NCBI GenBank assembly: GCA_017548125.1
Contig: JAFYNK010000018.1
Span: 1 to 59,444 of the forward strand
DNA from: Bacteroidales bacterium
GTDB lineage: Bacteria > Bacteroidota > Bacteroidia > Bacteroidales > F082
DNA length: 59,444 bases
Reading direction: 5' to 3'
Made by a program: the position numbers and the translations under genes. Each line of letters opens with the position of its first letter. Positions within the stretch are counted from its first letter, which is position 1. The notes under the pieces were generated by a model. It worked only from the letters and a program-made list of their open reading frames with translations, did not search any database and was not told the origin of the DNA. This document shows positions 4,672 through 39,597 of this stretch, piece by piece.

Positions 4672-5052
4672 ATGCATAAACGTTCATTAATTGCGACTAT
4701 GTTGTTTGCCGCTTTGTTCTTTTCATCATGTTCTTTGAAAAAAGATGTGACGATACCAGATGGAAATCGCGCTGTGGCTTATGAATATATGACTGAAGAT
4801 GCTGAAGAAGTCGTTTTGCCAGATTCAGAGCAACAATCCTTGAATAGTGGCGGAGTGCCTTATGAGGAATTGAAAAGAAGACATTATGAGATGCAGTCGG
4901 ACGTGACCAAAAAAATGATGAAAGAAAATGAAAAGAGAAGCAAGAGAGACACTCCGATAAAAAAGAAGTCGTTGTTTAATTTTGGCAAGAAAAAATCTTG
5001 CATGGAAGCAAATGACGCAGTGATTAAAGATGGTGTAAGAGATGTGAAGTGA
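4672..5052 (+). CDS. Small predicted lipoprotein preceding the sensor kinase
   Basis: About 126 residues. MHKRSLIATMLFAALFFSSC is a signal peptide with an SSC lipobox. The mature chain is charged, with a Lys/Glu-rich C-terminal half (KMMKENEKRSKRD), and no domain is recognised. ATG at 4672 is preferred over the in-frame TTG at 4663. Its TGA overlaps the ATG of the downstream sensor kinase by one base (TGATG at 5050-5054), which implies translational coupling. It may therefore be an accessory of the sensor, but that is inference from position only. Confidence 0.65.
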   Translation: MHKRSLIATMLFAALFFSSCSLKKDVTIPDGNRAVAYEYMTEDAEEVVLPDSEQQSLNSGGVPYEELKRRHYEMQSDVTKKMMKENEKRSKRDTPIKKKSLFNFGKKKSCMEANDAVIKDGVRDVK

Positions 5053-8000
5053 TGAACAAGAATGCCATTGGTTATATTGTCCTTTTATTTATGTTGCTGA
5101 TATTTCGTGCCGAGGTGTCAGGACAAAATAATACTTTGGCGTCATACGTCCTTAATAAGGATATTTCAAATAAAACAGAATCTAGTAGTTATCTTAGTTC
5201 TAAAATCGTTACCGCAATCGCTCAGGATGAAAATGGAATGATGTGGTTCGGAACAAAACGCGGCTTGAACTCATTCGACAGTTATAATTTTGAGGAATAC
5301 AATCAGCTCGATGGAATTATCAATGCCACAATCAACGACATGCTTCCATGTGGCGACACTCTTTTCATCGCAACGGAAAAAGGTCTCTGTATCTATAATA
5401 TTAAAAAGAAACAGGCAACGAACTTCTTCGCTGAAACAGACTCCTTGATGCTGCCCGATAATTATATCTTTCATATAACGCCGCCAGTAAATAACAGAAT
5501 TACAATATGTACCAAAAGCGGAACATCGGTATATGACCTCGCAACTAAAGAGTTTTACATACCTAAAATTAATAACTACTTCCCCGAATATGAGGTGCGT
5601 CAAATCGAACATATAGACGATGACAACTCTTGGTGGCTGGCAACGTCAAATGGTCTGGTCAGATACCAAGATGAGAATCAGTCAATAAAACATTTCTATT
5701 ATATCAAAGATGTTAAAAAGACATTGCCTGACAATAATCTACGATGCATGTATAAAATGAATAACTCGAAAATATTCATAGGAACAGCAAACGGATTGTG
5801 TCTCCTCGATGTTGAAAACGAAACGGTAGAAAGAATTGACTTGAATATGCTGACGTCATATAAATCTAATAAGATTGATGTGTCTAAAATTATAGCCTTC
5901 AATGATGATGAGGTGATTGTTAGTACTTATACTGACGGGTTGTATATCTATAATCATAAAAATAAAACAGCAACTCATATCTCTAAATTTAATAGACGCA
6001 ACGCAATATCAGACAATAACGTCTTCGATGTTTATAAAGACACCAACGGTTCTATCTGGGTGGCTACTTACGCAGGCTTGGACCGTTTTGAAAATAATCT
6101 GGCTAACTTCTCAACGGTAAGTCTGTTCCAAAATGGTTATATCTTGTCAATCAACTATTTCCTTGAGATGAATGAAAATGACTTCCTCCTCGGAACAGAA
6201 GCTGGCATAAAGATTTTTAACATTAATGATGAGTCTGTAAAGGATTTCAAGACTTATTTCAATTCTAAAGAAGATTATTTCGAGTCACTCTACGTGTATA
6301 ACCTTTATCTTGATAATGAGAACCGTCTTTGGATAGGAACACGTAACGATGGCTTGTATATATATGATATCGAATCAGATGAGGCTGTTGATGTGGCTGA
6401 AGAATATGATATACCTAATCTTACTCATGCCATTGTGCGTGGTATTGAAAGTGATAAGTATGGTAATATGTGGGTCGCAACGAATATGGGCTTGTGCCGT
6501 ATCAACTTGAAAGATAAAACGCATGCTTTCTATAATGCAGAAAAAAGAAACAAAAAATCATTGCCTTACAACGATTTGTTTGATTTGATGCTCGTTGACG
6601 ACGCCTTGTATGTTACCACAGGCGACGGACTCGCGATATATAGTTACGAAACAAATGATTTCACTAGATGCTATCTCCCTGATTCTCTGATGAAAGGTGA
6701 TGTGGTGAAAAATAACGCACTCTTTGATATTGTTGATGGTGGAAACGGACGCTATTATATCGGCTCTTATTCGAGTGGAATGTTGGCGTTTAATCCGGAA
6801 ACTAAGACGTTTAAAACTTCAAAAATAAATGGTAACTACGGAATTATGGTTTATGCCATCATCCCAGATGAAAACGGCTTCTTATGGGCAAGTACAAGTA
6901 AAGGTATCGTGAAGTATAACCTTGCAACAAAAGCCGTGACGAGTTACGACAAAAGCGATGGATTGCAGGGAAATGAATTTATCCCAAATGCTTTCTTGAG
7001 AAGTAATAATGGCGTGCTTTTCTTCGGAGGCTTCAGCGGATTCAATTACTTTAAACCTGATGACATCAAACAGGAGAATAAACTCCCAGAAGTAGTGATT
7101 ACAAAATTGCAGACAAGCAGCGGTAAGAAACATCGTTATCTTAATCACGGCGATACAATACATCTGTCTTATATGGAAAATTCGTTTGAAATAAGTTTTG
7201 CAACGCTTAACTTGTTGAGAAATAATATGGTTAAATATTCATATATGCTAGATAATTATGATAATGAATGGATAGTGACCAATTCAGCACATAGATATGC
7301 CGATTATAACAAACTTCGTCCAGGAACATACAGATTTAAATTGAAAGCCGCAAATGAAGTTAATGTCTGGACTGAAAAACCTCTGGAACTTACAATAGTA
7401 ATTCATCCTGCTTGGTATCAAAGATTCATATTTAAATTAATGTTGGTTTTGTTGTTCTCTTCCGTGATATTTATAATCGTGAAACAGAGAAGCAGGATTA
7501 TTATACAAAAAATAGAACAGAAACGTAAGATTAACGAACTTGAGATGCAGATGGCTCAGCTGAAACAAAAAACGCTTCAGCTTCAGATGAATCCTCATGT
7601 TATCTTTAACACTTTGAACAGCATCCAGCAATATATCATAGATCACGATATTGATAAGGCTGTGGGTTATCTCTCTAGCTTCTCAAAGCTCATGAGAAGA
7701 ATTTTAAATAATTCAAATGAACGATTCGTTCCTCTAACAGATGAAATGGAAGCGGTCAGACTTTACCTTGAATTGGAATCGATGCGTTTAGGTAATCGTT
7801 TTAATTTTGAAATAAATATTGATCCTGATCTGGACGCTGACAATATTGAAGTCGCTCCTTTGATTATTCAGCCGTTCGTTGAGAATGCTATCATTCATGG
7901 ATTGGTGCCAAAGAAAGAAAATTGTGTCTTGAAAATATCATTGTCTAAAATAGCAGACGAAAAACTGCTTTGCATTATTGAAGACAATGGCGTTGGACGT

Positions 8001-8192
8001 AAATATTCCGAAAAGATAAAACAAAAGTCAGGTTCTCATAAATCGTATGGAATGAGTATAACACGAAGAAGATTGGAAATGTTAAGCAAAATTTCTAATG
8101 ATGACTTCAGTGTTGATGTCGTTGACTTGCAAAATGACAATGGTGAATCTTTAGGAACGCAGGTTAGAATTGTAATAAGTTATCATGATTAA
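5052..8192 (+). CDS. LytS-type sensor histidine kinase with two-component propeller sensor
   Basis: About 1046 residues. After a signal/anchor segment (residues about 1-25) come tandem propeller repeats of the Reg_prop type with recurring WFGTKRGL, WLATSNGL, IWVATYAGL and LWIGTRNDGLY motifs (about 50-660). A Y_Y_Y-like domain follows (FEISFATLN to RFKLKAANE, about 700-785). One membrane segment lies near 793, then a coiled coil and the LytS-type His-kinase box QMNPHVIFNTLN with the presumed phospho-His near 849. The ATPase part has PFVENAIIHG and DNGVG. The architecture is that of the periplasmic sensors that control surface genes in Bacteroidota, but with a LytS kinase, not a hybrid AraC output. 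The partner is the LytTR regulator 16 bases downstream. Confidence 0.9.
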   Translation: MNKNAIGYIVLLFMLLIFRAEVSGQNNTLASYVLNKDISNKTESSSYLSSKIVTAIAQDENGMMWFGTKRGLNSFDSYNFEEYNQLDGIINATINDMLPCGDTLFIATEKGLCIYNIKKKQATNFFAETDSLMLPDNYIFHITPPVNNRITICTKSGTSVYDLATKEFYIPKINNYFPEYEVRQIEHIDDDNSWWLATSNGLVRYQDENQSIKHFYYIKDVKKTLPDNNLRCMYKMNNSKIFIGTANGLCLLDVENETVERIDLNMLTSYKSNKIDVSKIIAFNDDEVIVSTYTDGLYIYNHKNKTATHISKFNRRNAISDNNVFDVYKDTNGSIWVATYAGLDRFENNLANFSTVSLFQNGYILSINYFLEMNENDFLLGTEAGIKIFNINDESVKDFKTYFNSKEDYFESLYVYNLYLDNENRLWIGTRNDGLYIYDIESDEAVDVAEEYDIPNLTHAIVRGIESDKYGNMWVATNMGLCRINLKDKTHAFYNAEKRNKKSLPYNDLFDLMLVDDALYVTTGDGLAIYSYETNDFTRCYLPDSLMKGDVVKNNALFDIVDGGNGRYYIGSYSSGMLAFNPETKTFKTSKINGNYGIMVYAIIPDENGFLWASTSKGIVKYNLATKAVTSYDKSDGLQGNEFIPNAFLRSNNGVLFFGGFSGFNYFKPDDIKQENKLPEVVITKLQTSSGKKHRYLNHGDTIHLSYMENSFEISFATLNLLRNNMVKYSYMLDNYDNEWIVTNSAHRYADYNKLRPGTYRFKLKAANEVNVWTEKPLELTIVIHPAWYQRFIFKLMLVLLFSSVIFIIVKQRSRIIIQKIEQKRKINELEMQMAQLKQKTLQLQMNPHVIFNTLNSIQQYIIDHDIDKAVGYLSSFSKLMRRILNNSNERFVPLTDEMEAVRLYLELESMRLGNRFNFEINIDPDLDADNIEVAPLIIQPFVENAIIHGLVPKKENCVLKISLSKIADEKLLCIIEDNGVGRKYSEKIKQKSGSHKSYGMSITRRRLEMLSKISNDDFSVDVVDLQNDNGESLGTQVRIVISYHD

Positions 8193-8208: not shown

Positions 8209-8955
8209 ATGATAAGATGTGTTATTGTTGAAGACGAGGAAATGGCTCGTAAGGTCTTGAAATCGCTGCTTGCAGAATATTGCCCTGATGTTATGGTGTG
8301 CGCAGAAGCTGATGATATTACATCGGGACAGGAAATGATAGAGGCGTTTCGCCCTGATTTGGTCTTTCTGGATATTGAAATGCCAGGAGGTAGCGGCTTT
8401 AAATTGTTAAGCAATATAAAAGATGTGGATTTTGAAGTCGTTTTTATAACTGCTTACGAACAGTTCGCAATAAAGGCAATCAGACATGATGCCCTAGATT
8501 ACCTTTTAAAACCAGTTGATCCAAAAGAATTGGTGGCAGCTGTAGAAAAAGTAAAAGAAGCTAAATATAAAAAGACTATAAAAAGACAGTACGATACACT
8601 TCTGAAAAATATCGACCCAGAACAACTTGTTGTGAAAAAAATAAGCATTTCAACTTCAGATAAGATACATCTGATAGAAGTTGATGATATAATTCGTTGT
8701 GAATCTGATAATTATTACACAATTATATATTTTAAAGATGGAACAAGTCTCTTGGTAAGCAAAACCTTGAAAGAGATGGAACAGAAACTAGAAGAATATG
8801 ATTTCGTTCGTACTCATAAATCTCATCTTGTTAATATGCGTTGTATCATGAACTTTATTAAAGATGAAATGATGGTTGTTATGACGGATGGAGTGAAGGT
8901 GCCAGTCTCAAAACGAAAAAAAGAGAGAATAATAGAGGTTATAAACAATCTTTAA
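8209..8955 (+). CDS. LytTR-family response regulator
   Basis: A 248-residue cytosolic DNA-binding regulator. The receiver domain (about 1-120) has acidic residues at VEDEE, the phospho-acceptor Asp55 in FLDIEMPG, and Lys in LLKPVD. The LytTR domain (about 140-248) contains the block FVRTHKSHLVN and VPVSKRKKERI. It lies 16 bases after the kinase and is presumably its partner. The next gene downstream on the same strand is the receptor cassette at 9224, which is a plausible target, but no LytTR direct-repeat site was identified. Confidence 0.93.
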   Translation: MIRCVIVEDEEMARKVLKSLLAEYCPDVMVCAEADDITSGQEMIEAFRPDLVFLDIEMPGGSGFKLLSNIKDVDFEVVFITAYEQFAIKAIRHDALDYLLKPVDPKELVAAVEKVKEAKYKKTIKRQYDTLLKNIDPEQLVVKKISISTSDKIHLIEVDDIIRCESDNYYTIIYFKDGTSLLVSKTLKEMEQKLEEYDFVRTHKSHLVNMRCIMNFIKDEMMVVMTDGVKVPVSKRKKERIIEVINNL

Positions 8956-9223
8956 AATAATATAACATCTCTTTTGTAAACATTTTGAGGTTATTTATTA
9001 AATAATGTTAAAAATAAGCTAAAACCACATAAAAACAAAAAATATTTTTCACTAAATTAATATTTAATGTGTTAAAAAACAGTACTTTAATATATAGTAT
9101 GCCGTTATGTTGAAAAATATTTTTTAGTAATTGAATTTTTTCTTTCTTTTGTTTGAAATTTTATCGTATCTTTGAACTCCTTTTAACGAACAAATTGAGT
9201 AGTATAACATAAAATTTCAAGGT
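8956..9223. other. AT-rich intergenic region upstream of the receptor cassette
   Basis: 268 bases, very AT-rich with runs of A and T and no open frame. It holds the TATCTTTG box at 9167-9174. This is the only sizeable upstream region of the cassette, so any control by the adjacent regulator would act here. Confidence 0.6.
9167..9174 (+). promoter_or_regulatory. TATCTTTG promoter for the receptor/secreted protein/PorV cassette
   Basis: Exact TATCTTTG 50 bases before the ATG at 9224. TTTG-like -33 elements occur in the T-rich stretch upstream. The predicted leader is about 43 bases. Confidence 0.75.
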
Positions 9224-12200
9224 ATGTTAAGAAAATTACTATTTACCCTCTGCATCATGCTGACATCGTGGTCGTTAGCATATGCGCAAGTTGGACGACT
9301 CCAAGGTGTTGTTGTCGACAAAGACACTGGCGAACCAATTCCATTTGCAAACATTATTTTGGAAAATGGCGGTACCCAAGTTGGTGGTGCCAGTTCTGAC
9401 TTTGATGGCAACTATGACATCAACCCGATTCCTCCGGGAACCTACGACTTGAAAGCAACTTTCGTTGGTTACAACACTTTCATCATGAAAGGTATTGTTA
9501 TTCCAGCTAATAAGATTACTTTCCAAGACGTTAAGATGAGCATGCAATCAGAAATGTTGGATGCTGTTGAAATTGTTGACTACAAGGTGCCTTTGATTTC
9601 AAAGGATAACACATCTGGTGGTGCTACAATTACTGCGGAAGAAATTGCTAAGATGCCTCAACGCTCAGCATCAGCTGTAGCAGCGAGCGTCGGTGGCGTT
9701 TTCTCAAGTGACGGTGAAGCTGGTAACATGCGTGGTGCCCGTGACGGCGCTACATACTACGTTGACGGCGTACGTGTTATCGGTTCTGCAACTGTACCTC
9801 AATCTGCTATTGACCAAGTTGAAGTTCTCTTGTCAGGTACTCCAGCTATGTATGGTGACGCTACAGGTGGTATCATCAACATGACAACTAAAGGCCCTTC
9901 AAGAACCTTTGGTGCTGGCGTTGAAATGGAAACTTCAGAATTATTGGATAGCTATGGACATAATAGAGTTGGTCTCAATGTCCAAGGTCCATTGATTAAA
10001 GGTAAAAATAGCGAAACTGCTTTGTTAGGTTTCTTCTTATCAGGAGAATTTAACTACGATCGTGATGGAGCTTTGTCAGCTGTTGGCCATTACAAAGCTA
10101 CAGACGAATGGTTAGAGTACATTCAAAACAATCCTATCCGTGTTTCCGGTTCTGGTCAAGGTACCTACCTCAACGGTGAATACACAAGAATGGGTTCTAT
10201 GGAGTACATTAAAAACTCACAAAACACTTCAAACTGGAGTGCTAACATCGCAGGTAACATTAACGTTCGTACAACCGAAACAACTAACTTGACATTCGGT
10301 GGTACATTTAACCTCAGTAAGTATAACGCTTATAGCAGAAGCAGCGCTTACTTCAACTCAGCTAAAAACGCTGTAGGTAAAGACCAAACATGGCGTGTTT
10401 ACGGTCGTTTCACTCAAAGATTCCCATCTCCACAAGAAAGCACATCTTTGATTAAAAACTTCTACTATAGCTTACAAGTTGACTATTCTCGCTATAACAG
10501 CGAATACGGTGATCCAGATCATTGGAACAATATTTGGGATTATGGCTATCTTGGTAAATATACCATCTACAAAACTCCTTCTTATGGTTACGCTGACTCA
10601 ACAATCACTGTAACAAATGCTGATGGCTCAACATCTCTCTATAGCGGAGTATGGGCAACAACATCTTGGGATTATGATACTTTGGTAGGTTTCCAAGCTT
10701 CAGATCGTAACCCATTGTTGTCAAGATATACAACATCTTACTATGACTTGTACACAGATCCACTCGGACATTATCAAAACTTCACAGACCTTCAACTTGG
10801 TGGTGCTCTCTTGAATGGTGATTCTCCATCAGCATTCTACGGCTTATACTCAGCTCCAGGTTCTGTTCAATCAAACTACGGATACGGTGAAGTAGATAAA
10901 TTCAACGTTAACCTCGCTGGCGCTATGACAGTTGGTAACCATGAAATTAAATTAGGTTTCCAATATGAACAACGTAACAACAGAAGTTATGGTATCAGTG
11001 GATACAGAATGTGGTATTTGATGAGAAACCTCGCTAACTTCCACATCCAACAGTTGGACATCGCTAACCCTGAAGTAGTAAGCTATGATGGTTTCGTTGA
11101 TACAATCCGTTACTACAGAAGATATGACGAAGCATCACAATATCAATTCGACAAAAACCTCCGTGAAGCTTTAGGCCTTAGCGTAGAAGGTTTAGATTGG
11201 ATTAATATCGACTCTTATGACTTCAACGATAACACAATTCAATATTATGATAAAGACGGTGTTATGCATACTGCAACATTATCAAATGGTTTTGATATCA
11301 GCATGTTTACTCCAGATGAGTTGACACAAGACGGTAACTCATACGTTTCATACTACGGATATGATTATCAAGGTAATAAGATTAAAGGACAACCAAGCTT
11401 TGAAGATTTCTTCACAGAAGTTGACGAAAACGGTAACTATACACGTCCAGTAGGTTCATTCAAACCAATCTACATGGCAGGTTATATCCAAGATAAATTC
11501 GCTTTCAAAGATCTTATCTTCAACATCGGTGTTCGTGTTGACCGTTTCGATGCTAACCAAAAAGTTTTGAAGGATCCTTATATCCTTTATGATTACAAAA
11601 CTGTTGGTGATTTGGTTGATAACAATGGCAATATCACACTTCAAAATGGTACAGTTGTTGACGTTCCAGATAACATCGGTGATGACTTTGCAGTTTACGT
11701 AAATAAAGTTGATGACATCTCAGCTATCGTAGGTTACCGTAATGGTAATGTATGGTACGGTGAAGACGGTAAAGAAATTACTGACCCTACAACATTAGAT
11801 AAAGGTAGCGGTATCTCACCATGGCTCGTCGATCCATCACAACGTAAAATCAACACAGCTTCATTCGAAGATTATGACCCACAATGGAGTGTTATGCCTC
11901 GTATTTCATTCTCATTCCCAATCTCTGACGAAGCTTTGTTCTTTGCACACTATGACGTTTTGACACAACGTCCATCAAATAACTTTACAAATATTTATAA
12001 TTACTATTACTTCGATCAAATCAGTGGTGCTATTAACAACCCATCATTGAAACCAGCTCAAACAATTGACTATGAACTTGGTTTTACTCAAAAATTAACC
12101 AACTCATCATCAATGACAATTACTGGTTACTATCGTGAGTTACGTAATATGATTCAGTTGTATCGTTACACAGGTGCTTATCCAAAAGATTATACATCAT

Positions 12201-12952
12201 ACAGCAACTTAGACTTTGGTACAGTTAAAGGTTTCACAGCATCATACGACTTACGTAGAACAGGTAACGTTCGTTTACGTGCAAGTTACACTTTACAATT
12301 CACCAATGCTACAGGTGCAAGTACAACAACTATGTCATCTTTGATTGCAGCAGGTGTTCCTAACTTACGTTCTACATTCCCAATGCCATGGGACCGTCGT
12401 CACCAATTTAATATTGTTCTCGACTATCGTTTTGGCGAAGGAAAAGACTATAACGGACCTGTTACAAAACGTGAAGATAAGAAAAATATTCAATGGTTGG
12501 CTAACACAGGTGCTAGTTTGACTGTTAATGGTGGTTCTGGTACTCCATATACTTCAGCTAAGAACATTTCATCACCTATTTCTCCATCTACAAACATTTT
12601 GGATGGTTCAATGTATGGTTCACGTCTCCCTTGGTCATTCCGTTTCGACCTCCGTGTTGACAAAGACATCAACTTGAAACTCGGTAACAAAGATGGTAAT
12701 GGTCGTGATGCTTATATGAACGTATATCTCCAAGTATTGAACCTCTTGAATTCTAAAAATATCATGGGTGTTTATGCAGCAACAGGTAACCCAGACGATG
12801 ACGGTTATTTGACAGCTCCTGAATACCAACGTGAAATTCAAATTCAAAGAGATCCACAAGCATATACAGATTTATATAGCTTATATGTAAATTATTCGGG
12901 TCACTATTCACAACCACGTCAAATTAGATTTGGTGTAATCTTTAACTTCTAA
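9224..12952 (+). CDS. TonB-dependent receptor with carboxypeptidase-regulatory-like N-terminal domain
   Basis: 1242 residues. The signal peptide MLRKLLFTLCIMLTSWSLAYA is followed by a CarboxypepD_reg-like beta-sandwich (about 25-115; GVVVDKDTGEPIPFANI, FDGNYDI). Next is a plug domain (about 125-230; MRGARDGATYYVDGVRV, then IDQVEVLLSGTPAMYGDATG) and a long barrel ending in ...QIRFGVIFNF with a terminal Phe. It belongs in the outer membrane and would be energised by TonB with ExbB/ExbD (candidate motor at 53461-55829). No SusD partner follows. Instead there is a 1450-residue exported protein 25 bases downstream and then a PorV-like barrel. Codon use is strongly biased to GGT, AAC, GAC and CGT, suggesting very high expression. 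Ligand unknown. Confidence 0.92.
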   Translation: MLRKLLFTLCIMLTSWSLAYAQVGRLQGVVVDKDTGEPIPFANIILENGGTQVGGASSDFDGNYDINPIPPGTYDLKATFVGYNTFIMKGIVIPANKITFQDVKMSMQSEMLDAVEIVDYKVPLISKDNTSGGATITAEEIAKMPQRSASAVAASVGGVFSSDGEAGNMRGARDGATYYVDGVRVIGSATVPQSAIDQVEVLLSGTPAMYGDATGGIINMTTKGPSRTFGAGVEMETSELLDSYGHNRVGLNVQGPLIKGKNSETALLGFFLSGEFNYDRDGALSAVGHYKATDEWLEYIQNNPIRVSGSGQGTYLNGEYTRMGSMEYIKNSQNTSNWSANIAGNINVRTTETTNLTFGGTFNLSKYNAYSRSSAYFNSAKNAVGKDQTWRVYGRFTQRFPSPQESTSLIKNFYYSLQVDYSRYNSEYGDPDHWNNIWDYGYLGKYTIYKTPSYGYADSTITVTNADGSTSLYSGVWATTSWDYDTLVGFQASDRNPLLSRYTTSYYDLYTDPLGHYQNFTDLQLGGALLNGDSPSAFYGLYSAPGSVQSNYGYGEVDKFNVNLAGAMTVGNHEIKLGFQYEQRNNRSYGISGYRMWYLMRNLANFHIQQLDIANPEVVSYDGFVDTIRYYRRYDEASQYQFDKNLREALGLSVEGLDWINIDSYDFNDNTIQYYDKDGVMHTATLSNGFDISMFTPDELTQDGNSYVSYYGYDYQGNKIKGQPSFEDFFTEVDENGNYTRPVGSFKPIYMAGYIQDKFAFKDLIFNIGVRVDRFDANQKVLKDPYILYDYKTVGDLVDNNGNITLQNGTVVDVPDNIGDDFAVYVNKVDDISAIVGYRNGNVWYGEDGKEITDPTTLDKGSGISPWLVDPSQRKINTASFEDYDPQWSVMPRISFSFPISDEALFFAHYDVLTQRPSNNFTNIYNYYYFDQISGAINNPSLKPAQTIDYELGFTQKLTNSSSMTITGYYRELRNMIQLYRYTGAYPKDYTSYSNLDFGTVKGFTASYDLRRTGNVRLRASYTLQFTNATGASTTTMSSLIAAGVPNLRSTFPMPWDRRHQFNIVLDYRFGEGKDYNGPVTKREDKKNIQWLANTGASLTVNGGSGTPYTSAKNISSPISPSTNILDGSMYGSRLPWSFRFDLRVDKDINLKLGNKDGNGRDAYMNVYLQVLNLLNSKNIMGVYAATGNPDDDGYLTAPEYQREIQIQRDPQAYTDLYSLYVNYSGHYSQPRQIRFGVIFNF

Positions 12953-12977
12953 ACAGAAATAAAAAATTACTGAAAAT

Positions 12978-15900
12978 ATGAAGACTATTGTTCGATTATT
13001 AATTGTTGCATTCCTTTTCATGAATGTAACAGAAATGAGAGCCGAGAAGGTCAAAATGAATGACTCTAAATCTCGTGCTATCAGAGGTACAACAGCTGGA
13101 TGTTCTCCGTCTTCTACATTTGCTTGGTTGAATATCAACAATGCGAGAGTACGTGTTAATGCCGGTGGTGACATGTGGTGGGATCTCCCTGGTGGAACAG
13201 GATCTAAATACTATATTCCTGCTAATGGTTCAGCAACATCATTATATGCAGGTTCTCTTTGGATCGCTGGTCTCGACATCAACCAACAGTTAAAATGTGC
13301 TGCTATCCGTTTCCGTCAGGTCGGTAACGACTTCTGGACAGGACCTCTTACAATAGATGGTACTGCTTCAGTTCTTCCTGAAACATGTATGGAATATGAT
13401 AAAATGTACACAATTACACGTGCTGAAGTTGATGAATTCTTAGCAAATTGTGACCCAGAAACAGGTGATTTTATTCCTGCTGATGGTTATGAAATCCCAA
13501 CATCAATTGCTAACTGGCCTGCTCACGGCGACCCAAGCAAAGGTATGAGTAATTTCTTAGCTCCATTCTACGACGTAAATGGTGATGGTAAATACATACC
13601 TCAAGATGGTGATTATCCTTATTATGATATCGATAATGAACTTTGTCATAGCCAAGTTCCTACAATGGACGAATCTGTAGAAGGTTCTATTGCTGGTTCT
13701 GTTTTAGCTGACCAAGTTATTAAAGGTGACCAAACTATTTGGTGGGTATTCAACGATAAAGGTAATGCTCACACCGAAACAGGTGGTTCCGCTATCGGTA
13801 TGGAAATTAGAGCTCAAGCTTTCGCTTTCGCTACTAATGACGAAATCAACAACATGACTTTCTATAGTTATGAAATTATCAACCGTTCAACATATACCTT
13901 AACAAATACTTACTTCTCACCATGGACAGACGTTGACCTTGGTTATGCACAAGATGACTTTGTTGGTTGCGACGTAAGCCGTGGTTTAGGTTATGGTTAT
14001 AACGGTTCTAACATCGATGGTAATGGTGAACCTGAATCATACGGTGCTAACCCTCCAGCAGTAGGTGTTGACTTCTTCCAAGGTCCTTATTTGGATCCAG
14101 ACGGAATCGACAACCCTAAATATGACCCTATAACAGGTGAAAACTGTGACGAAAGTATCAACGGTGTTAACTTTGGTAATGGTATCATTGACGACGAACG
14201 TTTCGGTATGCGCCGTTTCGTTTACCACGATAATGACCAAACAGACCACGGTGACCCTGAAAAAGCTTCAGAATATTACAACTACCTTAGAGGTATTTGG
14301 AAAAATGGTGACAAGATGCACTTCGGTGGTAATGCGTTCCCAGGTTCTCCTGGTGTAACAGACGTTGCTTGTGACTTCATGTTCCCATACGATTCTGACC
14401 CATGTAACTGGGGTACAGGTGGTTTACCAACAGGTTTCCCAGGTTATTGGAGTGAAGAAACTGGTAACAATGGTGCTCCTAACAACCCTGCTGACCGTCG
14501 TTTCATGCAATCAGCTGGTCCTTTCACATTGAAACCAGGTGCTGTTAACTACATTACTTTCGGTGTGCCATGGGCTCGTTCATCAGCTGGTACAGCTTGG
14601 GCTTCAGTAGAATTATTACGTCGTGTTGACGATAAGTGTCAATCAATGTTCGACAACTGTTTCGACGTTCTCGATGGTCCAGACGCTCCAGACCTCACAT
14701 TCCGTGAACTCGATAAGAAACTCATCGTTTATATTTCTAACTCAGAAAACTCAAATAACTACGGTGAATCTTATAATGAAATCGACCCACAAATCTGCGG
14801 TCCTCTCGTAACAGACTCAACACAACGTAACGACTCAACATATCGTTTCGAAGGTTATATCGTATATCAATTGGCTAACAAAGAAGTAAGCGTTGAAGAA
14901 CTTAATGACATCTCAAAAGCTCGTATCGTTTATCAATGCGACGTTAAGAATGATGTATCAAGAATCATCAATTATATTTACGATGATGACTTACAAGCTT
15001 CTGTTCCTACATTAATGGTTGAAGGTAATAACGAAGGTATTAAGAATACATTTGTTATCACACAAGACGAATTTACAACAACAGGTGACGTTAACTTGAT
15101 TAACCATAAGACCTACTATTATATGGCAATTTCTTACGCATATAATAACTATCAAGATTATGAAATCGACCCTAACAACCCAATGGCATTGTTTGGTCAA
15201 AAGACTCCATATCTTGCAGGTCGTAAAAACATTAGAATGTACTCAGCAGTTCCTCACAAGATTGTAAACGGTACTGTTATCAATTCTAACTACGGTGACA
15301 AACCACAAATCACACGTTGGGTAGGTTTAGGTAATGGTGGTAATCAACTTGAACTTTCAGATGAAACTGTTAATGAAATCTTAAGCAAACAACCAGCAAG
15401 TGAAACTAATGTATTTGGTAGTCCAGATTATCCAATTGCATATCACCCAACATACAAAGCAGGTAATGGTCCTATCGACATTAAGATCATTGACCCATTG
15501 AATGTTGTTTCAACTGAATATGCAATCTGGTTTGAAGATTTCCATACAAAATACATTCAAAAGGTAACTGGTGACGTAGCTATTTTAGGTGACTCAACAG
15601 AAAAACAAATTTTCAGATGGAAACTTAAAGATTTAAATACTGGTGAAGTATTCGAATCAGACACAACATCAGACTTCCAATCAGAAAATATCTTCCTTGA
15701 AAGAGGTATTTCTGTAACAGTTTACCAACCATGGGGCATCGGTCCATTAAAAGCTGGTACACACTTCAATACATCACTTAATACTTATGATCCAGTTTGG
15801 AAAACTCTTGCTACAAATAATGGTCTTATTACAACATCAGTTACATACGCTGACTCTTCAAATAGATGGATGAGTGGTATTAGAGATGATGATAATCTTA

Positions 15901-17330
15901 CATCTTCACCTCTCAACTGGATTCGTTCAGGTACCTACGGTAACCAAGAAGACGGTCAATCATATCAAAACGACTATAACGTTGCATCAACAACTGGTGG
16001 TGTTACAAAACCTTATGACCCAACAGAAGATTATGAAAAGATCGCTGAAGGTACATGGGCACCAATGATTTTGACAAATGCATTAGGTAACTGTGGTGTT
16101 AACACACCTGGTCCACTTTTCAAGGCTAACTGTAGAGTTGACTCTATCTTCAGAAAATTAGGTTCTATTGACATCGTGATGACATCAGATAAATCAAAAT
16201 GGACACGTTGTCCTGTTATCGAAATGTGTTCAGATAAGAACTTATCAGAAGGTAAAGTTCCTGCATTCGCTTTACGTTATGCAGCTTCAGTTGACAAAGA
16301 TGGCAATCCATGTGAAGATATGAATATGGAAGCTAGCGACAATCCAAACGATCCTAACTATATCTCAGCAAGAGGTATGGGTTGGTTCCCTGGTTATGCT
16401 ATCGATGTTGAAACTGGTGCACGTCTTAACATGTGTTTCTCAGAAGACTCATATTATCCTGACTTGAACGGTCGTGATATGTTATTCAACCCACCAGCAT
16501 TGAAAGAAACAACAGTATTGTCAGCTCCATTAGCACAGCTTTCAGATCCTGTATTGTTCGATCCAGTTGATGCAACACCTGTATTCGGTGGTAAACATTA
16601 TGTATATATTTTCCCAATGAATAACGCTGGTGAATTAGGTTCAGCTTCATATAAGATTAAGTATAATTCTCCTGCATACGATGCTGGTGCATACATCTGC
16701 AACACATTAAAACGTATTGAAGGTGCTCCATCATCACAACAAGTTCACTATATAGCTTTATGGGGTCAACCATTATGGGTTGGTATGCCAATGGCTGTAG
16801 AAGGAAGAGAATGGTTACAAGAAGGTAACCCTGTTAAGATTTCTGTACGCGTTGCAACTCCTTACAGATCAGGTTACTCAGATGTTCCACTCGAACTTGA
16901 AACAGAAGAATTGTATGATACAGAAGAACACAATGGATATTATCCATATTATACATTCTCAACAAACGGTTGTGCTCCAACACTTAAGGATCTTGAAAAA
17001 GGCGAAAGCGACCTTAACTTGATTACTGTAGTACCTAACCCTTACTATGCATTCTCAACATACGAAGGCAATGCTCTTACACACACTGTTAAGATCGGTA
17101 ACCTTCCTGACAAGTGCGTTGTAACAATCTACACAGTAAACGGTGCTAAGATTCGTCAATTCAAGAAAGACTCTAGTGTTACAACAATCGATTGGGATTT
17201 AACTAACCATGCAAATACACCTATCGCTTCAGGTTTCTATATCATTCATGTAAGAGACCTCGTAAATGGTGGTGAAAAGACAGTTAAATTCTATTGTGCA
17301 ATGCGTCAAGTTGACTTAAATACATTCTAA
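12978..17330 (+). CDS. 1450-residue exported protein with sorting-like C-terminal domain
   Basis: Signal peptide MKTIVRLLIVAFLFMNVTEM.. then a very long beta-rich chain with no recognised catalytic domain. Visible features are a Ca-binding-like DVNGDG at about 199-204 inside DVNGDGKYIPQDGD, many Asp/Asn/Gly loops, and scattered Cys. The last 100 residues resemble a T9SS type A / FlgD-like domain (VVPNPYYAF, VTIYTVNGAKIRQF, then ASGFYIIHVRD), but the end CAMRQVDLNTF is not a standard sorting terminus. It lies between a TonB-dependent receptor and a PorV-like barrel with 25- and 32-base gaps, so all three are probably one operon. I infer a surface-exposed partner of the receptor. Codon bias again points to high expression. 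Confidence 0.7.
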   Translation: MKTIVRLLIVAFLFMNVTEMRAEKVKMNDSKSRAIRGTTAGCSPSSTFAWLNINNARVRVNAGGDMWWDLPGGTGSKYYIPANGSATSLYAGSLWIAGLDINQQLKCAAIRFRQVGNDFWTGPLTIDGTASVLPETCMEYDKMYTITRAEVDEFLANCDPETGDFIPADGYEIPTSIANWPAHGDPSKGMSNFLAPFYDVNGDGKYIPQDGDYPYYDIDNELCHSQVPTMDESVEGSIAGSVLADQVIKGDQTIWWVFNDKGNAHTETGGSAIGMEIRAQAFAFATNDEINNMTFYSYEIINRSTYTLTNTYFSPWTDVDLGYAQDDFVGCDVSRGLGYGYNGSNIDGNGEPESYGANPPAVGVDFFQGPYLDPDGIDNPKYDPITGENCDESINGVNFGNGIIDDERFGMRRFVYHDNDQTDHGDPEKASEYYNYLRGIWKNGDKMHFGGNAFPGSPGVTDVACDFMFPYDSDPCNWGTGGLPTGFPGYWSEETGNNGAPNNPADRRFMQSAGPFTLKPGAVNYITFGVPWARSSAGTAWASVELLRRVDDKCQSMFDNCFDVLDGPDAPDLTFRELDKKLIVYISNSENSNNYGESYNEIDPQICGPLVTDSTQRNDSTYRFEGYIVYQLANKEVSVEELNDISKARIVYQCDVKNDVSRIINYIYDDDLQASVPTLMVEGNNEGIKNTFVITQDEFTTTGDVNLINHKTYYYMAISYAYNNYQDYEIDPNNPMALFGQKTPYLAGRKNIRMYSAVPHKIVNGTVINSNYGDKPQITRWVGLGNGGNQLELSDETVNEILSKQPASETNVFGSPDYPIAYHPTYKAGNGPIDIKIIDPLNVVSTEYAIWFEDFHTKYIQKVTGDVAILGDSTEKQIFRWKLKDLNTGEVFESDTTSDFQSENIFLERGISVTVYQPWGIGPLKAGTHFNTSLNTYDPVWKTLATNNGLITTSVTYADSSNRWMSGIRDDDNLTSSPLNWIRSGTYGNQEDGQSYQNDYNVASTTGGVTKPYDPTEDYEKIAEGTWAPMILTNALGNCGVNTPGPLFKANCRVDSIFRKLGSIDIVMTSDKSKWTRCPVIEMCSDKNLSEGKVPAFALRYAASVDKDGNPCEDMNMEASDNPNDPNYISARGMGWFPGYAIDVETGARLNMCFSEDSYYPDLNGRDMLFNPPALKETTVLSAPLAQLSDPVLFDPVDATPVFGGKHYVYIFPMNNAGELGSASYKIKYNSPAYDAGAYICNTLKRIEGAPSSQQVHYIALWGQPLWVGMPMAVEGREWLQEGNPVKISVRVATPYRSGYSDVPLELETEELYDTEEHNGYYPYYTFSTNGCAPTLKDLEKGESDLNLITVVPNPYYAFSTYEGNALTHTVKIGNLPDKCVVTIYTVNGAKIRQFKKDSSVTTIDWDLTNHANTPIASGFYIIHVRDLVNGGEKTVKFYCAMRQVDLNTF

Positions 17331-17362
17331 TTATTATGCGAAAAAAATTAAAAAGTACGATC

Positions 17363-18427
17363 ATGAAAAAGTTATTTAAATCCATCGTTATAGTAAGCTT
17401 GACAATCTTAGTATTAGGATTAAGCAATACAGCATTCGCAGGTAATAAGGATAGAACAGGTCAAGCTGGTGCAACAGAATTGTTAATTAACCCATGGGCT
17501 TCATCAGCTGGTTGGGGTAATGCAGGTATGTCATCAATTCATGGTGTAGAAGCTATGTGGAGTAACGTTGCAGGTATCACTGCAACAAACTCCATCGATT
17601 TGAACTTCTCATATACTAATTGGTTAAAAGGTTCAGACGTAAACGCATATTCATTCGGTTTCCTCGCAAGAGTATCTGAATCAGTAGTAGCTGGTCTTTA
17701 TGTTATGTCATTCAATCCTGGTGAAATCTACAGAACAACTGAAGAATATCCTGACATGACATTAGGTACTTTCAAACCATCTTTGATGAATATCAACGTA
17801 GCAGTTGCTAAGTCATTCTCAAATAGTATTCATGCAGGTTTCGTTTTGAAAATCATAAACGAATCAATTTCTGATATGATTGGAACAGGTTTCGCTATCG
17901 ATGCTGGTATCCAATACGTAACAGGTATTACAGATAATATTCACTTCGGTATCACATTGAAAAACATTGGTACAACAATGAAGTTCGATGGTGACGGTAT
18001 CTCATTCAAAGCTAATCCAGATTCATTCTGGGGCTCAGAACTTACAGTTATTCACCGTGCTGACCAATTTGAATTACCAACTCAGTTGAATATTGCTGCT
18101 GCATACGATTTCAATTTCACAAACGGATCACGCCTCACAGCTGCAGGTAACTTTACATCAAACTCATTCTCAAAAGACCAAGTAACATTGGGTCTCGAAG
18201 GTTCTTTTAAAGATTACTTGATGCTTCGCGCTGGTTACACAATTGAAAATGGTATCTGGAAAGATATTGAACTTGATGACTGCACAAACGTTAACAATGG
18301 TTTGTCAATGGGTGCTTCAGTACAAGCTCCTCTTAGCGAAACTATGAAAGTCTCTATCGACTATTCATACCAAAGCACACACCATTGGAACGGTACTCAT
18401 ACTATAGGTGCAAGAATTATTTTCTAA
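17363..18427 (+). CDS. PorV/PorQ-family outer-membrane beta-barrel protein
   Basis: About 354 residues from MKKLFKSIVIVSLTILVLGL, a signal peptide cut after AFA. An in-frame ATG at 17336 would add nine residues. The mature N-terminus GQAGATELLINPWASSAGWG with GNAGMSSIHGVEAMWSNVAG is the typical PorV/PorQ start, and the rest alternates like a 14-strand FadL-type barrel ending GARIIF. PorV itself is the T9SS shuttle that carries cargo to the attachment complex. Here the gene is the last of the receptor / exported protein cassette, suggesting a dedicated shuttle or assembly barrel for that exported protein (inference). The likely terminator is the hairpin at 18481-18519. Confidence 0.8.
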   Translation: MKKLFKSIVIVSLTILVLGLSNTAFAGNKDRTGQAGATELLINPWASSAGWGNAGMSSIHGVEAMWSNVAGITATNSIDLNFSYTNWLKGSDVNAYSFGFLARVSESVVAGLYVMSFNPGEIYRTTEEYPDMTLGTFKPSLMNINVAVAKSFSNSIHAGFVLKIINESISDMIGTGFAIDAGIQYVTGITDNIHFGITLKNIGTTMKFDGDGISFKANPDSFWGSELTVIHRADQFELPTQLNIAAAYDFNFTNGSRLTAAGNFTSNSFSKDQVTLGLEGSFKDYLMLRAGYTIENGIWKDIELDDCTNVNNGLSMGASVQAPLSETMKVSIDYSYQSTHHWNGTHTIGARIIF

Positions 18428-18480: not shown

Positions 18481-18519
18481 AGGGCCCTTATTTCGGTAAG
18501 GGTCTCTTTTTTCTTTTTT
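18481..18519 (+). terminator. Hairpin with T-tract in the greA leader
   Basis: GGGCCCTTA pairs with TAAGGGTCT (two G-T pairs) around TTTCGG, followed by six T, a C, and more T. It lies between the greA promoter and ATG, so it may terminate the upstream cassette, attenuate greA, or both. Confidence 0.75.
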
Positions 18520-18544: not shown

Positions 18545-19018
18545 ATGGCTGAATTTGAATATTTTACACAGGCTGGACTTCAGAAATTAAGAGACGAATT
18601 GGATCGTCTTATTCTCGAGGAACGTCCAAAAGTCGTTCAGGCAATTGCTGAAGCTCGTGATAAGGGAGATCTTTCAGAAAATGCCGAATATGATGCTGCT
18701 AAAGAAGCTCAACAACATCTTGAAATGAAAATTGTTGAACTCCAACAATTAATCATGAGTGCACGTGTACTTGATGAATCTAAAATGGATACATCTAAAG
18801 CTCTGCTTCTCTCAACAGTAAAAATCAAGAACTTGAAAACTAATGCTGTTATGGCTTATACTTTAGTTCCTGAGAAAGAAGCAGATCTTAAAAATCATAA
18901 AATATCCGTCACTTCTCCTATCGCTAAAGGTCTTCTCGGAAAATCTGTAGGCGATCAAGTTGAAATACAAGTGCCAGCTGGCAAGGTTATGTTCGAAATT
19001 ATTGAAATAACACGTTAA
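18545..19018 (+). CDS. greA: Transcription elongation factor GreA
   Basis: 157 residues, normal for GreA. It binds RNA polymerase's secondary channel and stimulates cleavage of backtracked RNA. The N-terminal coiled coil (about 1-75) carries the acidic tip region GDLSENAEYDAAKEAQ. The C-terminal FKBP-like domain includes ISVTSPIAKGLLGKSVGD. The start is preceded by a 75-base leader holding a terminator-like hairpin. A HIT-family gene begins four bases after its stop, so the two are co-transcribed. Confidence 0.96.
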   Translation: MAEFEYFTQAGLQKLRDELDRLILEERPKVVQAIAEARDKGDLSENAEYDAAKEAQQHLEMKIVELQQLIMSARVLDESKMDTSKALLLSTVKIKNLKTNAVMAYTLVPEKEADLKNHKISVTSPIAKGLLGKSVGDQVEIQVPAGKVMFEIIEITR

Positions 19019-19022
19019 CATT

Positions 19023-19409
19023 ATGGCAACTATATTTTCAAGAATAATCAACGGTGAAATACCTTGTTACAAAGTCGCTGAAAACGAAAAATTCTTCGCT
19101 TTCCTCGATATCAATCCTTTGATGAAAGGTCATACACTCGTTATTCCTAAAAAAGAAGTCGATTATATCTTTGACGTTGAAGATAATGATCTTGCTGAAA
19201 TGATGGTATTTGCTAAGCAAGTAGCTGTTAAGATTAAGGATGTTATTCCATGTACTAAAGTCGGTGTGGCTGTGATCGGACTTGAAGTGCCTCATGCTCA
19301 CATTCACCTTGTTCCAATGCAAAAAGAAGGTGACCTCGACTTCAAACGCCCTAAACTCCAGCTTTCTCAAGAAGAATTCACAGAGTTACAAAAACAATTG
19401 GCGTTTTAA
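19023..19409 (+). CDS. HIT-family nucleotide hydrolase
   Basis: 128 residues with the histidine-triad motif HAHIHLVPM near residue 95 and the N-terminal FSRIINGEIPCYKV typical of Hint-type proteins. Such enzymes hydrolyse adenosine nucleotidyl phosphoramidates or transfer nucleotidyl groups; the exact substrate cannot be read. Cytosolic. Four bases separate it from greA, and a strong terminator follows at 19431-19477. Confidence 0.9.
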   Translation: MATIFSRIINGEIPCYKVAENEKFFAFLDINPLMKGHTLVIPKKEVDYIFDVEDNDLAEMMVFAKQVAVKIKDVIPCTKVGVAVIGLEVPHAHIHLVPMQKEGDLDFKRPKLQLSQEEFTELQKQLAF

Positions 19410-37647: not shown

Positions 37648-39597
37648 TTATTTAACAACAACTTTTGTTGTGTGGCTGTAACCGTTAGCTGTTACTGTGC
37701 AGAAGTAAACACCGCTGTTGAGGTCGTTGATTGAAACGCCGTTTTCACCTGTTGTTAAGTTTGTGTTAACAACTTTTACTGTTTGACCAGCAATGTTTGT
37801 GAAAGTAACTGTAGCGTTAGCATTCATTGATGAGCTTACGAAGATATATTCTGAAGCTGGGTTTGGATATACGTTATAAACAACGTCTTTAGCAACGATT
37901 TCTTCTGTACCTTCTAAGTATTCTGAAGAGATTTTGAAGATATAAGTCATGTTGCATTCTGGAACTGATTGGCTAGCGCCTGAACCCCATGCTAAACCAG
38001 GAACGTTGTCTGATACGTATGAGAACCAGAATTCATTGTTTCTTGTTACGCTTGGAGCAGCGTTAACGAACATTGATTCGTCAACCATGTGCATGAAGTC
38101 TTCGAATACGTGTTCAACAGCAACATGCCATGCATCTTCGTTAGCAGCTTTGTATGACATGATTGTTGATCTGTAGTAGTTTGAACCGTTGTAAAGTTCA
38201 CGTTCTGTATCGAGTGATGAATAAGCTAAAGCCAAGTTACCTGTTGGGTCAACTGAAAGAGCTGGGAAGCCTGAGCAGCTGCCGTAGAATTGGTAGATGT
38301 AGTCATCGTTTTTGTAGATAGCGTCAGCGTTGAAGTCAGCGATGTTGCTATAGAATGGTAACCAACCGCAGAAGTTGACTGAGTCCATTGAGTGGAGAGC
38401 ATAACCTTCATTTTCTGGGTCATCTTGCCATAATCTTAAGTTTGTTAAAGCAGCTCTTGTGTCATTCCAGTAAGCGATACCGTCAACTGTTCTACCATAG
38501 TAGTATGAGAATGTTGTACCGAGTTCTGTGTGAGCGTATGTTGCTACTGAGAATGCTACGTGTACTGTTCCGTCAGGACCAACAGCTACAGTGCTGTGAA
38601 CTGGAGTTTGAGCTGGATTATCTTCTGGAGTGATTGTGTTTGTGTCTGTTTCCCAGTCACCGTTATATGGGTTTTCCCAAACAACGATTCTTTCCCATGT
38701 TTGACCGTTGTCTGTTGATTTCATAACGAGAGCGTGGGCGTAGAATACTGTTGTGTAGCAGATAGCAACAACATCACCGTTTGAAGCGATTGAATAGTCG
38801 TCAGCGCTGTAGATGTCGATGTGTTCGTTTGTTTCTGCTAATGGTGAGTAACCAACTTCCCAGTTTTGACCGTCTGTTGAACGGCAGTAGAATTGAGCGT
38901 TAACCATAACGTCTGATGAAACTTGGTGTTGTGATGCGCAAACAACGTGGATGATGTCATTGTTAGGACCTGAAGTTGTAACTCTTGGCCATGATAATGA
39001 GAATGGGTATTCTAAACCTGTTGGGTTTGGAATTGAATAAGGACCGTCCCATTGACCTTCGCCAGCTTTTTCTCTGATCCAATAGTTAAGACCGCTTGAG
39101 TGGTTAACGAGGATTTCACCTTCTGCACCGTAAGGAGCGATTGATGGCCAACCTGTTCTTACGTCAGCACCTGTTGCGTTAGCTTCTTCACGTACTTCTG
39201 GAATGTCGTTGATGTTTGACATGTTACCGTTTTTGATGAAGTTGTAACCTGTACCACGGTCGCTAGCTGTTGTGTTAGCTTCTCTTGACATTGTAACTGC
39301 TACAGCAACGTCACCATTAGATTTTTGGTACATACGGTTTGATACGTGTCCGTTTGATTGTAAGTCGTAGTATGTTTCAACTGCAACAGCTTCTTCGAAG
39401 TTTGAATATCTGTTAACAACTACGCTATTGTTTGATTTTGATGAGTTTTCAATAACACTACCTGTGTAGATGTCATTTCCAACAGCAACCTTTGAAACTG
39501 TAGCTTTGCCTGATACGGCTTCTTTTGCTACACGGTTTTGTGCAAATGCACTAAATCCCATTACGAGACCTAATGAAAGTAAAAGAACTTTTTTCAT
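37648..39597 (-). CDS. T9SS-secreted BNR-like surface protein
   Basis: 649 residues. The signal peptide KKVLLLSLGLVMGFSAFAQ is followed by about 530 residues with repeated Asp-box-like segments (STDNGQTWERI, STDGQNWEVGY, VAVGPDGTVHVAF, LSVDPTGNLALAYS), suggesting a six-bladed sialidase-like propeller. The C-terminal T9SS type A domain reads VYPNPASEYIF, VTFTNIAGQTVKV, LNSGVYFCTVTANGYS and KVVVK. Catalytic Arg/Tyr residues of sialidases could not be placed, so an enzyme call is not made. Strong codon bias implies an abundant surface protein. Promoter TATATTTG lies at 39658-39665. Confidence 0.82.
   Translation of the reverse strand: MKKVLLLSLGLVMGFSAFAQNRVAKEAVSGKATVSKVAVGNDIYTGSVIENSSKSNNSVVVNRYSNFEEAVAVETYYDLQSNGHVSNRMYQKSNGDVAVAVTMSREANTTASDRGTGYNFIKNGNMSNINDIPEVREEANATGADVRTGWPSIAPYGAEGEILVNHSSGLNYWIREKAGEGQWDGPYSIPNPTGLEYPFSLSWPRVTTSGPNNDIIHVVCASQHQVSSDVMVNAQFYCRSTDGQNWEVGYSPLAETNEHIDIYSADDYSIASNGDVVAICYTTVFYAHALVMKSTDNGQTWERIVVWENPYNGDWETDTNTITPEDNPAQTPVHSTVAVGPDGTVHVAFSVATYAHTELGTTFSYYYGRTVDGIAYWNDTRAALTNLRLWQDDPENEGYALHSMDSVNFCGWLPFYSNIADFNADAIYKNDDYIYQFYGSCSGFPALSVDPTGNLALAYSSLDTERELYNGSNYYRSTIMSYKAANEDAWHVAVEHVFEDFMHMVDESMFVNAAPSVTRNNEFWFSYVSDNVPGLAWGSGASQSVPECNMTYIFKISSEYLEGTEEIVAKDVVYNVYPNPASEYIFVSSSMNANATVTFTNIAGQTVKVVNTNLTTGENGVSINDLNSGVYFCTVTANGYSHTTKVVVK

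Follow-up and report, generated by a model that had tools for sequence, protein, structure and literature searches.

The 59,444-nucleotide stretch of Bacteroidales DNA analysed here (the window) carries three adjoining genes, here termed TBDR, EXP, and POR, that might form a module for one outer-membrane uptake complex, similar to SusCD in its working but built from parts of the type IX secretion system (T9SS); we consider the chances of this reading to be about even. TBDR (positions 9224..12952, + strand) encodes a 1242-aa TonB-dependent receptor, EXP (12978..17330, +) a 1450-aa exported protein with a signal peptide, identified by eye, at approximately residues 1 to 22, and POR (17336..18427, +) a “receptor-linked” barrel of the PorV family, 363 aa in length, or 354 aa if translated from the ATG at 17363. 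The gap between TBDR and EXP is 25 bases, and that between EXP and POR depends on the start codon of POR, measuring 5 bases if the first ATG is used and 32 bases with the in-frame ATG at 17363, which provides a signal peptide that looks normal by eye. With the latter start, the coordinates agree with the three adjacent genes and gaps of 25 and 32 bases described in an earlier reading of this DNA (the original prediction).

EXP is found throughout the class and beyond it. Matches at E ≤ 0.001, including partial, head-only, and C-terminal domain (CTD)-only ones, are present in 30 of 40 relatives and in 173 of 198 genomes of the class; among 247 phylum genomes that are at least 90% complete, 132 are matched by the EXP profile at the same threshold. 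The closest named relatives are Bacteroidales metagenome-assembled genomes, several of them from the gut of ruminants or horses. The best 80 named loci of at least 580 relatives, a nonrandom sample, contain 81 EXP open reading frames (ORFs) of at least 800 aa, and 70 of these stand in the order TBDR-EXP-POR, directly adjoining and on the same strand. In L085 and L111, just TBDR is missing, at a contig edge; in L063, TBDR is present and POR is not recognised. A set of 40 loci from genome searches (L005 to L044), which overlaps the named set, shows TBDR in 39 loci and POR in all 40, in one of them split. Behind the trio (window positions 18545-19409) lie genes that, judging from their sequences, we take to be GreA-like and HIT-like. 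Of the 80 loci, 63 have the former and 60 the latter downstream, mostly as the second and third genes after EXP, and this unusually stable neighbourhood shows that the locus is old.

The same order is seen in 18 of 20 hand-picked regions around strong EXP matches (16 of the 18 that come from other classes), in which ORF calling prioritised profile matches; of the two exceptions, L172 ends near a contig end and L179 is arranged differently. The EXP proteins of other classes are shorter (1008 to 1245 aa). All of them contain the CTD and most contain a recognisable head, with almost no head signal (12 bits) in L183. Within the class, 171 of the 198 genomes encode both EXP and SprA, 2 encode only EXP (one of these genomes is just 56% complete), 20 only SprA, and 5 neither (Fisher p = 4e-4, uncorrected for relatedness). 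SprA is also present in the genome from which the window comes.

The original prediction described EXP as a huge exported protein of no known domain, and indeed it has no Pfam domain above the cut-off; Pfam searches with EXP, with 22 of its relatives, and with ten CTD proteins from sister cassettes return just weak tail matches and one sub-cut-off match to DUF7407. Its divergent sorting-like end, also pointed out there, proves to be a T9SS CTD by predicted fold: residues 1345 to 1450 (17010..17327, +) are predicted to form an Ig-like β-sandwich, the fold of type A CTDs. The nearest CTD, both by sequence and by predicted fold, is that of PorZ, which is the sole match (E of 0.11) in a search of PDB sequences with the EXP profile. 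The type A tail model TIGR04183 is matched at E values of up to 1 by 22 of 23 EXP family members, with L032 (24.9 bits) and L178 (25.5 bits) passing its cut-off, and the type B model TIGR04131 matches none of the 23 at E values of up to 1. Matches to the PorZ model are limited to the CTD region, where six members of EXP set A1 score no more than 34.8 bits and L178 reaches 40.1 bits, and the EXP members examined show no PorZ or PorU match outside it. A full-length PorZ is excluded as an identity for EXP, as the window protein has no match to the PorZ model (NF052228; 260 bits). The confidence in the type of CTD is good.

Such a CTD would also be expected in an ordinary type A cargo, which the canonical PorV would shuttle and PorU would cleave at the CTD and attach to lipopolysaccharide, with POR serving as a FadL-like pore for hydrophobic molecules. 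The TIGR04183 matches are consistent with this alternative, as are the canonical PorV and PorQ, both above their cut-offs, that the same genome encodes, and the FadL-type barrel superfamily to which POR presumably belongs. However, the divergence of the CTD families parallels that of their own barrels (see below), EXP carries a conserved extra tail, and the nearest CTD, that of PorZ, is described as unprocessed in a passage of PMC10202324, all of which makes the ordinary-cargo explanation rather improbable.

The extra tail (17304..17327, +) extends about 8 residues past the canonical CTD end and typically terminates in L-(D/N)-x-F. The idea that it is required for POR binding was dropped, because the CTD proteins of identically ordered sister cassettes close with canonical strands resembling K-F-A-I-I-K, and because most EXP proteins that lack a recognised POR beside them (6 of 8) still show the tail pattern. 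The head of EXP (residues 42 to 564; 13101..14669, +) is a predicted β-sandwich that resembles the N-terminal domains of the glycoside hydrolase (GH) enzymes of the GH15, GH65, GH94, and GH116 types, which combine an N-terminal β-sandwich with a catalytic α/α barrel. Residues 276 to 300 show a mean identity of 91% to the window protein across 80 relatives. No GH domain is detected by Pfam in EXP or its 22 relatives. On contig C8 of the same genome (L004:7492-18249), a head-only paralog of EXP (502 aa, without the CTD) is found in a run that encodes, in this order, a TonB-dependent receptor, a SusD, a PNGase F_C protein with a T9SS tail, the paralog, and a T9SS-tail protein.

POR scores 123.4 bits with the PorV/PorQ family model NF033709 (cut-off of 90 bits), which also matches, at an E value of 0.001, all 36 members of POR alignment A4; its identification as a PorV/PorQ-family barrel therefore stands, and the confidence in this class assignment is good. 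It is neither PorV (59.4 of 250 bits with NF033710) nor PorQ (67.4 of 220 bits with NF033711) and lies outside the clades of both. PorV2 (NF052325; 325 bits) is rejected as well: the window POR has no match to this model at an E value of 0.001, a threshold at which 24 of the 36 alignment members match it, and the top score among eight far PORs is 80.2 bits. BamG is likewise rejected, with POR scoring under the cut-off of the BamG model. With the PorP/SprF models, POR scores 20.2 bits (TIGR03519; cut-off of 90.55) and 31.9 bits (PF11751; cut-off of 22.3), so that by the NCBIfam models it fits PorV/PorQ far better than PorP/SprF (123.4 versus 20.2 bits).

A FastTree phylogeny was built from 128 proteins, 30 PorV, 26 PorQ (a length and match filter excluded 4 of 30 PorQ loci), and 72 trio PORs, the last comprising every sixth Bacteroidales one, 17 far ones (the POR of L179, with its differing gene order, among them), and 42 from five genomes of other classes. 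PorV and PorQ form one clade each (support of 1.0), and all 72 trio PORs form one clade (support of 0.94), the third in addition to those of PorV and PorQ. With 26 further PorV-family ORFs from the five genomes added, the POR clade grows to 81 members, including nine from outside the trio list. Three of these directly follow a TBDR, with the CTD protein absent (L254, L266, and L294), two lie downstream of a CTD-protein gene (L268 and, by coordinates, L260), and four are the barrels of tandem pairs. Of the 36 window-type PORs, 35 cluster together as a subgroup (support of 1.0), and the POR of L183 groups with the sister cassettes. Five PorV-family genes that are not PorV, PorQ, or trio members (L257, L271, L286, L298, and L310) are mutual nearest relatives and perhaps represent the PorV2 of NCBIfam. 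L015 and L082, each of which lies on a 188,616-base contig and which probably share a genome, have a POR that is divided between two ORFs, by either assembly error or decay.

The first gene, as delineated in the ORF list and scanned with Pfam and NCBIfam, contains an N-terminal CarboxypepD_reg domain followed by Plug and TonB barrel domains, all above Pfam cut-offs. A SusC/RagA identity is rejected, as the window TBDR has no match to TIGR04056 (cut-off of 368 bits); among ten cassette TBDRs scanned, nine score 52 to 89 bits and the tenth has no match. The Pfam matches of EXP and its 22 relatives include no SusD/RagB family, consistent with the proposal of a TonB-dependent receptor without SusD.

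Similar cassettes are found in multiple copies in the five other-class genomes, which contain 67 PorV-family genes over the model cut-off and 14 to 26 PorV-family matches each. The 66 regions fetched around these genes yield 68 PorV-family ORFs (L260 is not resolved by the ORF caller). A CTD protein is encoded immediately upstream of 48 of the 68, compared with approximately 0.25 such pairs expected from random gene order with assumed gene counts, and 41 of these 48 pairs are part of the order TBDR, CTD protein, POR. Three of the 48 are PorU-PorV neighbours (L273, L287, and L300), in which a CTD protein of 1320-1326 aa, taken as PorU by its size and place, is encoded directly upstream of porV; the rest of the 68 ORFs include canonical PorV and PorQ. 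If larger gaps are permitted, there are 42 cassettes, 7 to 10 per genome. Conserved synteny, which the original prediction offered as its own check, is thus seen across the phylum (70 of 81 EXP ORFs, 18 of 20 regions, and 41 of 68 PorV-family ORFs), and the three families do co-occur elsewhere, one of the points on which that prediction was said to stand or fall.

The partners' distance matrices, compared within genomes, are correlated, with r values of 0.77 for CTD and POR, 0.82 for the protein body and POR, 0.87 for TBDR and POR, and 0.88 for TBDR and the body; none of 2000 permutations reaches these values (the maximum is 0.46). Therefore, the cassettes multiplied and diverged as units, and the case for a co-inherited three-part unit is strong. 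The three genes might instead share just an operon, an arrangement for which strong expression of the whole trio could select, with products that act separately; with gene order and adjacency preserved from class to class and among within-genome paralogs, and with divergence correlated, this is very unlikely. Similarly hard to credit is a machine for outer-membrane assembly or processing, with the PorQUVZ attachment complex or, in the β-barrel assembly machinery (BAM) of Bacteroidota, the extracellular canopy as its analogue and TBDR as its client or energy coupler. High codon bias and the EXP matches in 171 of 191 SprA-bearing class genomes would agree with such a machine, and passages of PMC12578637 and PMC12611786 describe, for BamG-BamH, a barrel that holds a big extracellular subunit. 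Nevertheless, 7 to 10 paralogous cassettes per genome with diverged TBDRs fit substrate specialisation better, and POR does not reach the BamG cut-off.

A further alternative is a complex with a structural or adhesive role at the surface, resembling an S-layer or binding a matrix, in which EXP would be a major surface protein, POR its anchor, and TBDR an anchoring or signalling component, with no import. EXP is large, with codon usage like that of ribosomal proteins, and type B CTD adhesins of Flavobacterium use cognate downstream barrels, according to a passage of PMC12618676. However, TBDR is next upstream in 41 of the 48 CTD-POR pairs, and the PORs of L254, L266, and L294 keep TBDR without a CTD protein, which ties the module to the receptor; in addition, Pfam detects no adhesin repeat domain in EXP or its 22 relatives. 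Overall, an adhesion complex appears unlikely.

The surroundings of the sister cassettes provide some hints of substrate. Ten of their upstream genes were scanned. Four of these encode proteins with a T9SS tail, namely, a GHL10 hydrolase, a CBM9 protein, an FG-GAP protein, and a tail-only protein, and the others encode a pectinesterase, GntR, IclR, and RpiR-SIS regulators, an ABC permease, and a peptidyl-prolyl isomerase (PPIase). Four of the ten (GHL10, CBM9, pectinesterase, and RpiR-SIS, the last one through a sugar link that we assume) point to carbohydrates. No riboswitch is found in the 28 sister-cassette regions searched. The PPIase gene (L253:505-2184), which has two rotamase stretches, ends 0 bases upstream of TBDR; genes of similar size lie 15 to 50 bases upstream in L265, L276, L291, and L302, which represent the other four genomes (just the L253 gene was scanned).

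Under the proposed mechanism, EXP would be exported by the Sec system and then moved outside by the T9SS translocon, where its PorZ-like CTD would be taken up by its own barrel, POR, and not by the general PorV. POR would stay bound, shielding the CTD from the PorU sortase and anchoring EXP, much as PorQ holds PorZ and PorV holds PorU. EXP would be located beside or over TBDR, its β-sandwich head would capture the substrate, probably a glycan or glycoconjugate, and TonB-driven import would follow; the capture partner would thus be a T9SS product held by a barrel, where SusC-SusD uses a lipoprotein. The dedicated barrel for a surface partner of the receptor, the core of the original prediction, appears well supported by comparative evidence, because synteny, joint divergence, the predicted CTD fold, and the separate POR clade all point to it. 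The confidence is moderate that EXP is anchored by POR and weak to moderate for the uptake function and a glycan substrate.

Several observations weigh against the uptake reading. The end of the window EXP scores 19.2 bits with TIGR04183, under the cut-off of 23 bits, and the likeness of its head to GH-associated domains is one of fold alone, which tells no function. Neither partner is found by BLAST beside EXP in six loci (L101, L103, L108, L112, L117, where the contig ends on the side of POR, and L124), and L095, a 5.5-kb contig, and the second EXP of L113 are out of order; therefore, POR need not adjoin EXP. The tail pattern is kept in 6 of 8 EXP proteins with no recognised adjoining POR. 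Further, 20 of the 191 SprA-bearing class genomes have no EXP match, so T9SS works without the trio. The scan covered just 10 of the 42 genes upstream of sister cassettes, a choice made by eye, and head similarity is seen in just 10 of the 48 CTD proteins adjoining a POR, so that the glycan contexts are not directly transferable to the window trio. The window cassette itself sits among housekeeping-type genes, not glycan genes, and the window contains no riboswitch that could serve as a substrate clue.

The trio genes share a pronounced codon bias. Measured against 28 ORFs from the genome's own ribosomal-protein operon (the genome is a 2.73-Mb assembly of 97 contigs), the codon adaptation index (CAI) is 0.822 for EXP, 0.799 for POR, and 0.778 for TBDR, ranks 3, 7, and 11 among the 91 ORFs sampled. 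The codon usage of the trio is ribosomal-protein-like, and the extreme bias attributed to all three genes at the outset is borne out. Elsewhere in the window, a 649-aa protein with a signal-peptide-like start (37648-39597, -) has the top CAI (0.841) and the lowest effective codon number (28) among the 91 ORFs. A -7-like element, TATCTTTG (9167..9174, +), is located 49 bases upstream of the TBDR start; it was identified by reading and fits what we take to be the Bacteroidetes -7 consensus, TAnnTTTG. No good -33 element is seen in the sequence upstream of TBDR. A terminator-like hairpin of 10 pairs with a T run (18482..18505, +) separates POR from the next gene, although such sites show no excess in the whole region (6 observed versus 5.8 expected). 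The hairpin after POR and the -7-like element before TBDR make a single TBDR-EXP-POR transcription unit likely. Two candidate regulators recognised by Pfam, a Reg_prop/Y_Y_Y sensor histidine kinase (5049-8192, +) and a LytTR response regulator directly upstream of the trio (8209-8955, +), have CAI values of 0.594 and 0.597, unlike the trio, and a gene from each of their clusters is found upstream in just 14 of the 80 loci.

More tentatively, Bacteroidota might possess a second class of paired uptake systems beside SusCD, in which a receptor is joined by a capture protein that T9SS exports and by a private barrel of the PorV class, at once export shuttle and permanent anchor. One member would be an ancestral, highly expressed envelope component in much of the phylum; in other taxonomic classes, the module would have multiplied to serve different substrates, many of them glycans. 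If so, type IX secretion would also assemble nutrient receptors, beyond its roles with proteases, adhesins, and gliding, and the 14 to 26 PorV-family matches per genome in the five other-class genomes would be explained. A barrel family so far known by PorV and PorQ would gain a third clade, a large and highly conserved family with only weak Pfam matches would gain a function, and retention of the CTD by a private barrel would be a testable answer to how some CTD proteins escape cleavage.

No description of such a trio was found in the open-access PMC material that the literature search covered (subscription papers and preprints fell outside it). Its parts are each of a known kind; what appears to be new is the way in which they are combined, together with the third barrel clade. 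The closest parallels are PorZ-PorQ and PorU-PorV, in which a surface protein with a T9SS CTD reported as uncleaved is held by a PorV-family barrel; the CTD of PorZ, stated in part of PMC10202324 to remain uncleaved, is reported to bind PorQ. The EXP CTD is nearest to that of PorZ, and a CTD gene, putatively porU, directly precedes porV in three of the five genomes. In contrast to these systems, the EXP members examined show no PorZ or PorU match beyond the CTD, POR belongs to neither clade, and TBDR is next upstream in trio-type pairs (41 of 48). As with type B CTD proteins and their PorP/SprF shuttles, exemplified by SprB-SprF and Fjoh_3952-Fjoh_3951 in a passage of PMC12618676, the cognate barrel gene directly follows that of the secreted protein, whereas the EXP CTD is type A/PorZ-like with no type B match, POR scores higher with PorV/PorQ (although it passes the Pfam PorP_SprF cut-off), and a TBDR is included. 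BamG-BamH similarly combines a FadL-type barrel with a surface protein, which the barrel carries by its extracellular loops (a passage of PMC12578637), but BamH is a lipoprotein and POR scores below the BamG cut-off. Like SusC-SusD and RagA-RagB, the trio joins a TonB-dependent receptor to a co-encoded partner, has multiplied as a unit, and has some copies near glycan genes; in contrast, its receptor scores below the SusC cut-off, EXP bears a T9SS CTD in place of any SusD match, and a PorV-like barrel is encoded as a third component.

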